Assembly: GCA_024291935.2 (NCBI GenBank)
Contig: CM044310.1
Location: forward strand, 118,864,213 to 118,928,212
Reading direction: 5' to 3'
Source: Okapia johnstoni
Taxonomy: Eukaryota; Chordata; Mammalia; Artiodactyla; Giraffidae
Length of the DNA stretch: 64,000 nucleotides
The position numbers and the translations under genes are program-made. Positions 34,019 to 43,420 of the stretch are shown here, one piece after another. Numbering within the stretch: the stretch's first letter is position 1; each line of letters starts with the position of its first letter. Below the pieces are notes generated by a model, which saw only the letters and a program-made list of their open reading frames with translations, was not told the DNA's origin and ran no database searches.

Positions 34019-34160
34019 CTGGAGCTCCAAACGAAGAGTCTGCTCTCAGAGAAGTTCGGAGTAAGACGTGTCCACTGGCTGGATAAACCTATCCTTTATT
34101 AGAACCTCAGGGGGCGTGGCTTGTTCCTATTGGCTGATTGGATTATGCCTTCTCGTGAGA
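34019..34160 (-). promoter_or_regulatory. FRG2-like promoter with exact DUX4-type site
   Basis: Reading on the minus strand, TAATCCAATCA (complement of 34135-34145) matches the published DUX4 consensus TAAYYYAATCA with no mismatch, 117 bp upstream of the ATG. Two CCAAT boxes (CCAATCAGCCAATAG), a CCACGCCCCC GC box and an AATAAAGG TATA-like run follow towards the gene. Binding is not shown. Confidence 0.6.
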
Positions 34161-34785
34161 TTAGGAGCCTTGTTTGAGGTTGTACTGGGGAACCTGATAC
34201 AGGACAATAAGGTGAATTTTTGTTTACCGTCTAGACAATTTCAGCCTGTTCAATATTTTTCCAGTCTTGAATCATCCCTTTCAAAATTCTCCTTTGGGTG
34301 GGTGTTGGGTTGGAAATGGAGCTGATAAACTTTAATGCAAGTCGTTATAAATTTGTGTTTGTCTAGTAAATAATGCAGATGCCATAAAATCAGTTCTAAG
34401 AAGTAATTAAGGAAATAAAAGACAATAAAAGCTTCCCAGGTTTTATAACAAAAGGTTATTTACAAATTTTAAAAATATCATTTAAAACACAATTCATATT
34501 CGCATTCTCCCAATTTACTCAAACACATTTTATTGGGGTTTTGTTTGATCGGTTTTTGAGCCAGGATTTAAACAAAGTCCCTACATTAAAATTACTTCTT
34601 GTAACTTATGAAGTGGTATAGTCTGTCTGAAAATATCATTAAAACCAGTTGCAAAATGGAAGCACATTATTCAGAAAGAAATTGTAGCCACATATAAAAT
34701 TTTTTTTTCTATCAATTCCAAACAAAAGGAAAGCGATTCACAATCAATTGGAAAAAAATTGAAAAAACAATTCACAGGTTAATAA
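34160..34785. other. Intergenic between FRG2-like gene and a BovB tail
   Basis: AT-rich; no gene or repeat recognised. Confidence 0.4.
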
Positions 34786-34789
34786 ACTC

Positions 34790-35310
34790 ATATCCTAGAC
34801 AGCATATTGAGAAGCAGAGACATTACTTTGCCAACAAAGGTCCATAGAGTTAAGGCTATGTTTTCTCCAGTAGTCATGTATGGATGTGAGAGCTGGACCA
34901 TAAAAAAAGCTGAGCACCAAAGAATTGATGCTTCTGAACTGTGGTGTTGGAGAAGACTCTTGAGAATCCCTTGGACTGCAAGGAGATCCAACCAGTCCAT
35001 CGTAAAGGAGATCAGTCCTGGGTGTTCATTGGAAGGACTGATGTTGAAGTTAAAACTCCAATACTTTGGCCACCTGATGTGAAGAGCTGACTCATTTGAA
35101 AAGACCCTGATGCTGGGAAAGATTGAGGGCAGGAGGAGAAGGGGACGACAGAGGATGAGATGGTTAGATGGCATCACCGACTCGATGGACATGGGTTTGG
35201 GTGGACTCCGGGAGTTGGTGACGGACAGGGAGGCCTGGCGGGCTGCGGTTCATGGGGCCGCAAAGAGTCAGACACAACTGAGCAAATGAGCTGAACTGAA
35301 TGATGAATAT
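34790..35310 (+). mobile_element. RTE-BovB LINE 3' end
   Basis: Sense copy encoding the end of the BovB reverse transcriptase (VMYGCESWTIKKAEHQRI, ELWCWRRLLRIPWTARRS, FGHLM) with a frame break, then the tail ending near ACACAACTGAGC. Confidence 0.92.
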
Positions 35311-35679
35311 TATGTTACATTGTATACAGCATTGCTAATAACAAAGTAATTGTGAATAAAGACACCACCATGATTTCATGTGCAAGCAAAAATTCAAGTT
35401 AACCAGTATGACAATGAAGTGGGAACTGGAGATTCTCCTCTAAAGTTAGAGTGTTTTAACCAGTTCACAGGAACTAAAACTGAAGATTCATGAAAAAGAT
35501 GTTTTAGCAATTCAGCTCCTCATTTTCTGTTTATAATAGCAAGGAGATTGCCCAAGTGTGTTCACGGGAGCATTGATAATGGAAAGAAAAACATAGGCTC
35601 AGGAATTAAAACCAAACAGTCCAGCGCATTGACACAAATGAATCACAAACATTGGTTTGAATTCTGCTGTCTGAAACCC

Positions 35680-36440
35680 ACTGCTATGCTTTGGAACCAA
35701 CAGCATCTAGGACCTAATGGGGAGTATAGACTGTAAGAGATTGTCCCATAGTGAGCTTGGAAGCCTCCTTTGGTGATAACGCTGCTGAGGCACAAACTGT
35801 GTGACAAGGAACCAGGGGACTTGGCCATGAAAAGATAGGAAAGAAAGAAATTCCTGAAATCAGCTGGGTGACTCACTGTTTGACTATTTCCTGAAATAGG
35901 TGAGGACTCTTTGGGATGACTCTGAGGCAACTCCTAGGCCACTGGAAGTCAATTCAGATTGAGGGAGTACAAATGCCCAGTCATGTTCTGCTTGGGGAGT
36001 GCCTTTGAAGAGAGAGAAAGTGTAAGCTACAAAATAAATAGAATCTAATGGAAATACAATACAAACACACTCAACAGAAAAATATCTTATTGCACAGATG
36101 GCAAAAAATATGATCATAATGGATATTAAGAAAAAGAAAAGAGAATTCTGCCATAAACAGGAAATACACCGCCGAGATAGCCTGTGTCTATATCTGCTGT
36201 TGTTATGTTTAGTCCCAACACCCCATCAGATCTAGAATCTGGGGAGTTGTCCCATGGTTTGGAAGTCTCCTCTGTTAATAGCATTGCTAAGGAAAAACCC
36301 TGGGACAAGGCACAATTCCACTTGAGCAGGAAAAGACAGGAAAGAAATTCCCAGAAGCAACCCAGTGACTCACCGTTTGGTGATTCCCTGAAACTGGGAA
36401 GGACTTCTTTGGGATGACTCAAAGGTCACTAGCAGGCCAC
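35680..36440. repeat. Diverged tandem duplication, about 240 bp
   Basis: 35690-35940 and 36184-36440 share ordered words: GTTGTCCCAT or ATTGTCCCATAG, TGGAAG then CTCC, TGACAAGG or GGGACAAGG, GACAGGAAAGAAATTCC or GATAGGAAAGAAAG, GTGACTCAC, and CTTTGGGATGACTC. Identity is perhaps two thirds. The source family is unknown; it could be an old retroelement. Confidence 0.6.
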
Positions 36441-36897
36441 CACAAAAAAAAAATACACCAGAAATAAAAAATACAGTTTTGTTTCTGGAAACTTCTGACA
36501 ACATTTCACACTCAGTCTATGCCTTCCATGTAGTTGCCCAGTTAAACACGAGCCAGACAAAAATAAATAAAATTATATAAGAAGAAAAGCTCATGGAGAC
36601 TCACTGAACATGAGTTGATTTCTTCCCATTGCCCTCTTGAGAACCCAAACAACCCCAAGATCTAGGACCACCTGAACCCCTATGGAACCCCTCTATGGAA
36701 AACTCATTCTGAGGACAGCTCTCCAGGTCAATCCAGAAACTCTCTATTGGGCTCAATATCTCCCAGTGTTAAGATGAACCCTAAAAAATATATGGAAATA
36801 TCAAGAGCAGAACAGTCCCAAACCTGATTCGGTTTCTCAGAGACATCTGAAAGTTTACTAGGTAGTGATTGGGTATATGTTACACCTCTTCCACAGG

Positions 36898-41659: not shown

Positions 41660-41760
41660 AACATTCCATCCAATCAGGAGAAGTGGGCGTGGCTTTGTTA
41701 CCATGTGATTAGATTAGGATGATGGTGTTACCGGAAGGGTGTGGCCAGGGGATACAATGG
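41660..41760 (+). promoter_or_regulatory. FAM90A-like promoter, unit 2 (interrupted)
   Basis: CCATCCAATCA is at 41666-41676, a GTGGGCGTGGC GC box at 41683-41693, and TGATTAGATTA at 41706-41716, the complement of TAATCTAATCA, an exact DUX4-type site. Homology to the other units stops at about 41757, where the palindromic SINE pair begins, so unit 2 has no exon here. Confidence 0.55.
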
Positions 41761-41779
41761 TTAAGACTCTGTGCTTTCA

Positions 41780-42399
41780 TGCTACTGCTGCTGCTGCTAA
41801 GTCGCTTCAGTCGTGTCCGACCCTGTGCGACCCCACAGATGGCAGCCCATCAGGCTCCGCCGTCCCTGGGATTCTCCAGGCAAGAATACTGGAGTGGGTT
41901 GCCATTTCCTTCTCCGGTACATGAAAGGGAAAAGTGAAAGTGAAGTCACTCAGCCGTGTCCGACTCTTAGCAACCCCATGGACTGCAGCCTACCAGGCTC
42001 CTCCGTCCATGGGATTTTCCAGGCAAGGGTACTGGAGTGGGATGCCATCGCGTTCTCCAAAAATAAATGAGTAACTCAGTATTTCATATTTTTATTTTTT
42101 GGCCTTCTCCCATGAAAGCACCGGAGAAGGCAATGGCACCCCACTCCAGTACTCTTGCCTGGAAAATCCCATGGACGGAGGAGCCTGGTAGGCTGCAGTC
42201 CATGGGGTTGCTAAGAGTCGGACACGGCTGAGTGACTTCACTTTCACTTTTCCCTTTCATGTACCGGAGAAGGAAATGGCAACCCACTCCAGTATTCTTG
42301 CCTGGAGAATCCCAGGGACGGCGGAGCCTGATGGGCTGCCATCTGTGGGGTCGCACAGGGTCGGACACGACTGAAGCGACTTAGCAGCAGCAGCAGCAT
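41780..42399. repeat. Near-perfect inverted pair of BovA-type SINEs
   Basis: Left arm 41780-42058 (antisense) and right arm 42123-42399 (sense) are almost identical reverse complements, with a 64-bp spacer. I count about four mismatches and a one-triplet difference in the GCT run. Each arm is a two-part BovA element including the unusual join TCCGGTACATGAAAGGG. Confidence 0.92.
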
Positions 42400-42956
42400 T
42401 TATTTTTATCCAGTGTGTTTAGCAGAACATATTTGGAGCTGGTTGAAATTCAGGACCCTGACCATAAACCTGTAAGCAAAATGGAGCCGCACATCAGGGG
42501 CTGTGGTGGAGGCCAGGGTTACTTTTTCCTTTTAGAAATCTTAGTTTATAGTTTTATCTTTTTGGCCTCTTCCCATGGAAGCGCAGAGTCTTAACCATTG
42601 GACTGCCAGGAAGTGCCGGAGATGAGTTATTCTAACTTAATTTCTGTTTGGCAAGTGCTTCCTCAGTGCTTGAAATTGGTCACGGAAAATATGAAGAGGA
42701 AAACACACTTTATTCTAGACCATCAAATATGCCAGTCCCACGATCAGATATACCGTGTGCTGACCCTTTCTTTCCTGTTCCTGGCAGAACTGTCTTTTCA
42801 TTTTCTTAATATAATCCATTATAGTAAATTTTACTTACTTCTTATGACAGCTGTGGAATAGGATATCTTCCCACTGCAATCTATTTGTATTTCTATTAGA
42901 TCCTATTAATTTTTTAGTCAACCTATTCCATCTTTTCAAAGAAGTTCCCTGAGTGA

Positions 42957-43165
42957 GGGGCTTCCCAGGAGACTCAAGGGTAAAGAATCCACCTGCAATG
43001 CAGGAGACATGGGTTTGATCCCTGGGTTGGGAAGATCCCCTGAAGGAGGAAATGGCAACCCACTCCAGTATTCGCCCCTGGAGAAACCCATGGACAGAGG
43101 AGCCTCACACTACAGTCCATGGGTCCGAAGAATCCGAGAGCGCTGAGGAACTAACACTTTCACTA
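42957..43165 (+). mobile_element. Bov-tA SINE
   Basis: Sense copy from GGGCTTCCCAGGAGACTCAA to GCGCTGAGGAACTAAC, between promoter units 2 and 3. Confidence 0.9.
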
Positions 43166-43294
43166 TATTGTTTAAATGAAATACATGTATCTTTCTTAAG
43201 TCATAGGGAATTGCAGAGACCAAACTAGACTGTATTTTTTTCAGTTTTATACTTTGAAATAAAATGGGAGTGTGAAAGAATGGTAAAAACGCAA

Positions 43295-43420
43295 TACAAC
43301 CTTCTATCCAATCTGGTTAGGTGGGCAGGACTTTGTCACGTGATTAGGTGAAGGAGATGGTGTTATTGGGCGGGCATGGCCAAGGGGGTCCTAAGACAGT
43401 ATTAAGGCCCGCAGAAGGAA
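43295..43420 (+). promoter_or_regulatory. FAM90A-like promoter, unit 3 (nearest the gene)
   Basis: CTATCCAATCT is at 43304-43314. TGATTAGGTGA at 43341-43351 is the complement of TCACCTAATCA, one base off the DUX4-type site, and it overlaps a CACGTG E-box at 43338-43343. A weak TATTAAG lies near 43400. Confidence 0.5.

Follow-up and report, generated by a model that had tools for sequence, protein, structure and literature searches.

The functions of FRG2 and FAM90A are unsettled, and both genes are known mainly from work on muscular dystrophy and segmental duplication. Here we analyse 64,000 nucleotides of the okapi (Okapia johnstoni) genome (C6:118864213-118928212, called the window below), in which an FRG2-like gene and a FAM90A27P-like gene lie in divergent order, with exact matches to the DUX4 consensus TAAYYYAATCA upstream of both. 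In human cells, DUX4 binds to its sites in the FRG2 promoter and thereby activates it (PMC4364343), and activation of human FRG2 by DUX4 was also cited in the first-pass annotation of the window (this and the other papers are cited for the passages and tables that concern DUX factors and their targets). When DUX4 is expressed in human myoblasts, FRG2 is induced 7.9- and 10.24-fold and FAM90A1 5.5- and 11.8-fold at 12 and 24 h, respectively (PMC5323140, Tables 1-2); thus, both human relatives of the pair are DUX4-responsive. DUX4 works with all four flavours of TAATYYAATCA, the CT form being best (PMC4730607). In cattle, a DUX-family motif is the most enriched in intergenic open chromatin at the 8-cell stage (PMC7498599). 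With moderate confidence, we interpret the two okapi genes as putative direct targets of a double-homeodomain protein, DUXC, that would switch them on in the early embryo or germline.

Direct targets are expected to carry the DUX4 motif at their promoters above background. Exact matches to TAAYYYAATCA were counted in the window and five were found, at 9815 (minus), 34135 (minus), 40788 (minus), 41706 (minus) and 44704 (plus). The first-pass annotation had named four sites, one of them with a mismatch, and all four have the coordinates and strands that it gave; its three exact matches are real, but 9815 and 44704 had escaped it. The expectation that it quoted, 0.24 matches per 64 kb, is correct for equal base use, and the measured value is 0.42, both in 100 dinucleotide shuffles of the window (maximum in any shuffle, two) and across the genome, where 15,543 exact matches (7,745 + 7,798) occur in 2,375,770,010 bases. 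The reversed pattern, used as a control, occurs 12,539 times (6,257 + 6,282). One exact match was found in 40 kb of flanking sequence, on which ground a regional excess of the motif was rejected, and none in 20 homeobox-type loci (L013-L032, about 64 kb). Because the FAM90A promoter units described below are duplicates, 40788 and 41706 were counted once; the remaining four matches give a Poisson P(>=4) of 1.2e-4 against a second-order Markov expectation of 0.25. Among 20,000 letter-permuted motifs, 37 match within 300 bp 5' of the ATG of FRG2, 59 match FAM90A promoter unit 1 and 152 match unit 2, while a single one matches both FRG2 and unit 1 (and unit 2 as well). These counts place the motif above background at the promoters in question.

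The FRG2-like gene occupies 32328-34018 on the minus strand and was delimited by the FRG2 domain (PF15315) and by tblastn with sheep (P0006) and goat (P0009) proteins, which gave exon blocks at 34018-33800, 33471-33391, about 33150-33077 and 32798-32328. The domain match is strong (E 6e-47; 160.5 bits against a curated cut-off of 27), and a genome-wide search for FRG2 domains reported this gene as its single match. By the sheep protein model, exon 1 would end at a GC donor, not GT (AAAAAG/GCAAGA, 33800, minus). The exact site TAATCCAATCA (34135-34145, minus) lies 117-127 bp 5' of the ATG and 34 bp 5' of a TATA-like AATAAAG, so that the earlier description of it as close upstream of a predicted start stands. 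It overlaps a CCAATCA box, and a second CCAAT follows 8 bp past it. A consensus scan thereby outlines a predicted promoter core at 34094-34145 (minus), made up of the DUX-type site, the second CCAAT, CCACGCCC (GC/KLF-type) and AATAAAG.

The FAM90A27P-like gene is transcribed from the plus strand. Between 44457 and 50250, the Bos taurus protein P0021 is matched by all of its six blocks in order, and tblastn with this protein and Cervus P0020 placed coding exons at 44457-44528, 45031-45204, 46793-46972, 48228-48422, about 48773-48881 and 50152-50250, the aligned blocks being free of stops. The product carries a zinc knuckle (zf-CCHC_6, E 1.9e-18), and knuckle and exon order together place the gene in the FAM90A family, closest to cattle FAM90A27P-like; the closest named relatives of the window's proteins in general are from sheep, cattle and red deer. 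The gene identities and divergent order proposed earlier are upheld. A shared bidirectional promoter was considered and rejected, as about 6.8 kb of repeat-rich DNA separates the predicted starts.

Upstream of the coding exons, the FAM90A promoter and a predicted non-coding first exon are present as three tandem copies. Unit 1 (40738-41003, plus) has a CCAAT box (40766-40770), the exact site TAACCTAATCA (40788-40798, minus) about 48 bp 5' of TATAAA (40846-40851), and a predicted non-coding exon 1 that ends at a GTAAGG donor; here too the site is close upstream of a predicted start. A second, one-mismatch site in unit 1, TAATCCCATCA (40802-40812, minus), is 3 bases from the exact one and holds TAATCC, a K50 homeodomain core. 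Unit 2 (41560-41759, plus) is an upstream half that ends after GGCCAGGGG. Its exact site TAATCTAATCA (41706-41716, minus) thus lacks the nearby start claimed for it, the TATA box and first exon having given way to repeat copies. Where the core of unit 2 is gone, two inverted arms of 274 nt, 99% complementary and 64 nt apart, occupy 41785-42396 and look like a recent event. Unit 3 (43190-43620, plus) has a CCAAT-type box, TATTAA and a copy of exon 1, and its site TCACCTAATCA (43341-43351, minus) has one mismatch, the A of the first TAA being replaced. A further exact match, TAATTCAATCA (44704-44714, plus), is intronic and lies between the first and second coding exons of the gene. Since units 1-3 duplicate one promoter, the earlier treatment of the three FAM90A sites as separate events fails. 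Across the units, nine of the 11 columns of the site are unchanged, against 97 of 181 overall, which ranks it second behind the CCAAT block. Unit 1 was also considered as a dispersed repeat carrying the motif; this was rejected, since a genome search with unit 1 DNA returned units 1 and 3 only (the search passes over very common words, and unit 2, unreported there, was recovered by pattern search).

When the genome was queried with the FAM90A protein of Bos taurus, three more zinc-knuckle loci were revealed, on C27 at 4.40, 4.53 and 4.76 Mb. Each carries a single exact match, again TAATCCAATCA, in the 10 kb of upstream sequence retrieved, and a further 4 kb upstream of two of the copies contains none. 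The flanks are 75-81% identical among the three copies. Their alignment spans 469 columns, and 17 of its 459 windows of 11 columns show no variation; the site sits in a 17-bp stretch without change, which ranks second in length among such runs. Because similarity between the three loci extends for several kilobases, alignment alone is no mark of a promoter. Downstream of the site are a conserved block with a GTAAGA donor (two of three copies) and, at 3.4-5.3 kb, a weak match to the first coding exon, comparable to the 3.4-kb first intron in the window; this arrangement suggests a putative exon 1 in the C27 copies. Comparison of the C27 flanks with units 1 and 3 gave no alignment beyond one 23-base stretch, which is at chance level. 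Within this genome, the site is kept in the three C27 copies and in units 1 and 2, and is degraded in unit 3. In the C27 copies (L035, L036, L037), the region of the promoter and first intron also contains internal repeats of ~70% identity, reminiscent of the tandem units in the window.

DUXC, DUX4 and mouse Dux have in common two homeodomains, an intron in each homeobox and an LLxxL-type tail (PMC3004920, PMC10195082). Using human DUX4 homeodomains as the query, we located a DUXC gene on C23 (homeobox exons at 931275-931415, 931527, 932267-932416 and 932779), the structure of which was read from the homeobox exons and the last exon. The homeobox exons are open and encode two homeodomains, and an intron with GT and AG borders interrupts each homeobox after RVQ or RIQ. 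Six PSLLDELLAATGVPD-type repeats stand in tandem in the product of the last exon, which ends in EAPLSEDDYQALLDMLPGSPGPWA; judged by eye against the published descriptions, this is a tail of the (L)LxxL(L) kind. The closest relatives of solved structure are DUX4 chains (6e8c, E 6.5e-49). The RRRR and RRKR arms and the Q, N and R of each third helix, which are the DNA contacts of DUX4 and its readers of TAAT (PMC5990521), are all unchanged, so that the genome does encode a DUX protein with the DNA-contact residues of DUX4. The repeats are about 36 residues each with an LLDELL-type motif (L040, C23:929000-938999, about 3780-5024 of that locus) and resemble the tail repeats reported for mouse DUX; activation may become stronger as their number rises. 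A DUXA-like gene, again with each homeobox split by an intron, lies at C6:120.191-120.196 Mb, about 1.26 Mb past the window, and cattle DUXA is located near the end of chromosome 18 (PMC11542365).

Taken together, the paralogue sites, the DUXC gene and the DUX4 induction of both human homologues favour the DUX-family reading put forward in the first-pass annotation. DUXC would bind the 11-mer with both homeodomains, next to CCAAT and GC/KLF boxes, and its repeated LLDELL tail would serve to recruit activators; DUXA may compete for the site. The CCAAT and GC/KLF boxes and TATA would provide the basal promoter, beside which one site may be enough, and the timing would presumably be early embryonic or germline. 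Several observations weigh against regulation by DUXC. At promoters that look intact (FRG2 and unit 1), the count comes down to one exact site per gene, because the units are duplicated, the core of unit 2 is lost and the site of unit 3 is degraded; the latter is probably inactive, since substitution of the A in the first TAAT made a ZSCAN4 motif inactive (PMC4730607). DUX4 reporters at low DNA required at least two sites (PMC4730607), and the human FRG2 promoter has three consecutive sites, represented in printed primers by TAACCTAATTA and CAACCTAATCA (PMC4364343), whereas the okapi gene has one. TAATCTAATCA, in the broken unit 2, is the flavour that ranks strongest for human DUX4. The TAACC type of unit 1 falls outside the four flavours ranked (PMC4730607), but the human FRG2 sites in the primers read TAACCTAATTA and CAACCTAATCA (PMC4364343). 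Further points against are that CCAAT boxes overlap with the sites of FRG2 and C27, that exact matches abound in the genome at only 1.24 times the frequency of the reversed control, and that DUXC and DUX4 differ in the third helix of homeodomain 1 at four positions, none of them in the Q-N-R triad.

The overlap with CCAAT boxes raises the question of whether the sites are ordinary NF-Y boxes of TATA/CCAAT promoters, their likeness to the DUX4 motif being a by-product of CCAATCA. The FRG2 site and the three C27 sites do read as TAAT plus CCAATCA, FRG2 has its second CCAAT close by, the best-kept block of units 1-3 is the CCAAT block and not the DUX-type site, and NFY motifs characterise the open chromatin that is maintained in bovine embryos (PMC7498599). 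However, NF-Y does not require TAAT, and one of the nine CCAATCA occurrences in the window (both strands) is preceded by it, namely that of FRG2, as are those of the three C27 copies; moreover, the exact sites of units 1 and 2 contain no CCAAT and adjoin a separate CCAAT box. We regard this explanation as quite unlikely. Early-embryo PRD-like K50 factors (LEUTX, TPRX, OTX) might instead read the sites through TAATCC, with no need of a double homeodomain. TAATCC is contained in the FRG2 and C27 sites, and TAATCCC is found at 40802 in unit 1; the DUX4/DUXC motif has been noted to include TAATCC and to be potentially usable by PRD-like factors (PMC11542365), and 8-cell bovine embryos show an enrichment of OTX motifs (PMC7498599). 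Yet the 11-mers of units 1 and 2 carry TAACCT and TAATCT, every exact site keeps the AATCA half that a single reader of TAATCC would not need, and human FRG2 and FAM90A1 respond to DUX4 itself (PMC5323140), which makes this route, in our judgement, unlikely. Both explanations fit the FRG2 and paralogue sites, and not the exact FAM90A sites in the window.

A common 11-mer could also have fallen near two promoters by chance and then been copied by duplication. The genome-wide abundance of the motif, its excess of only 1.24-fold over the reversed control and the duplicate nature of units 1-3 would all allow this, and eight of 3,000 permuted motifs likewise reach at least five matches in the window. 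Against this stand the joint match at FRG2 and unit 1 by one permuted motif in 20,000, the exact site upstream of all three C27 copies found, and the scarcity of matches in the flanks and homeobox-type loci; chance thus seems very unlikely.

Several other features of the window were recorded. Between FRG2 and FAM90A, a retrovirus-like stretch (36828-40012) shows surface-protein-like frames and a terminal repeat bearing poly(A), and a Pfam search with two of its frames gave no match; repeat names, whether retrovirus-like or SINE-like (short interspersed element), were assigned by eye. KRAB and C2H2 zinc-finger frames lie on either side of the gene pair. The fifth exact site, TAATTTAATCA (9815-9825, minus), is less than 200 bp from a GC-rich stretch (10001-11000, GC 0.69) upstream of a minus-strand KRAB exon (6943-7191), so that a KRAB zinc-finger gene may have its promoter nearby.

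Should regulation by DUXC hold in ruminants as regulation by DUX4 does in human cells, FRG2 and FAM90A would likely have a role in the first cleavages or the germline, and the two genes would become named readouts for ruminant DUXC. Cattle embryos, in which DUX motifs dominate newly open chromatin, would offer a direct test system. In the open-licence PMC literature, we found no earlier report of a site at a FAM90A27P-like promoter or of its DUX response, nothing on FAM90A in zygotic genome activation and, judged by title, no related report on FRG2 in cattle or on FAM90A27P; the passages on DUX4 at the 8-cell stage mention FRG2 only as a neighbouring locus.

Compared with the described systems, the okapi FRG2-like gene resembles human FRG2 in its family and in having DUX4-type promoter sites (PMC4364343), and nothing in the surroundings of the human sites, as far as the primer pieces cover them, can be aligned with it. 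The FAM90A gene shares its family with human FAM90A1, which is DUX-responsive in human cells (PMC5323140), but differs in being nearest to cattle FAM90A27P-like. DUXC here has six tandem LLDELL-type repeats, unlike the tails described for DUXC, DUX4 and Dux (PMC3004920, PMC10195082). In the bovine embryo at the 8-cell stage, when DUXA is expressed, intergenic chromatin that has newly opened is dominated by DUX motifs, and the DUX passages of these reports name neither FRG2 nor FAM90A (PMC7498599; PMC11542365); a link from a programme of this type to the two genes would thus be new here. Because the human FRG2 sites differ and the two types of FAM90A promoter do not align, the DUX link appears, on these sequence comparisons, older than the individual sites. 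Tentatively, and with slightly less than even confidence, we suggest that FRG2 and FAM90A have a fixed place in the DUX programme of placental mammals as a whole, in which the sites are replaced while the link persists, the ruminant reader being DUXC with its repeated LLDELL tail. Human FRG2, ruminant FRG2, the FRG2-linked FAM90A gene and the FAM90A copies of the second contig, each with differing sites, would then exemplify binding-site turnover beneath a conserved regulatory link.

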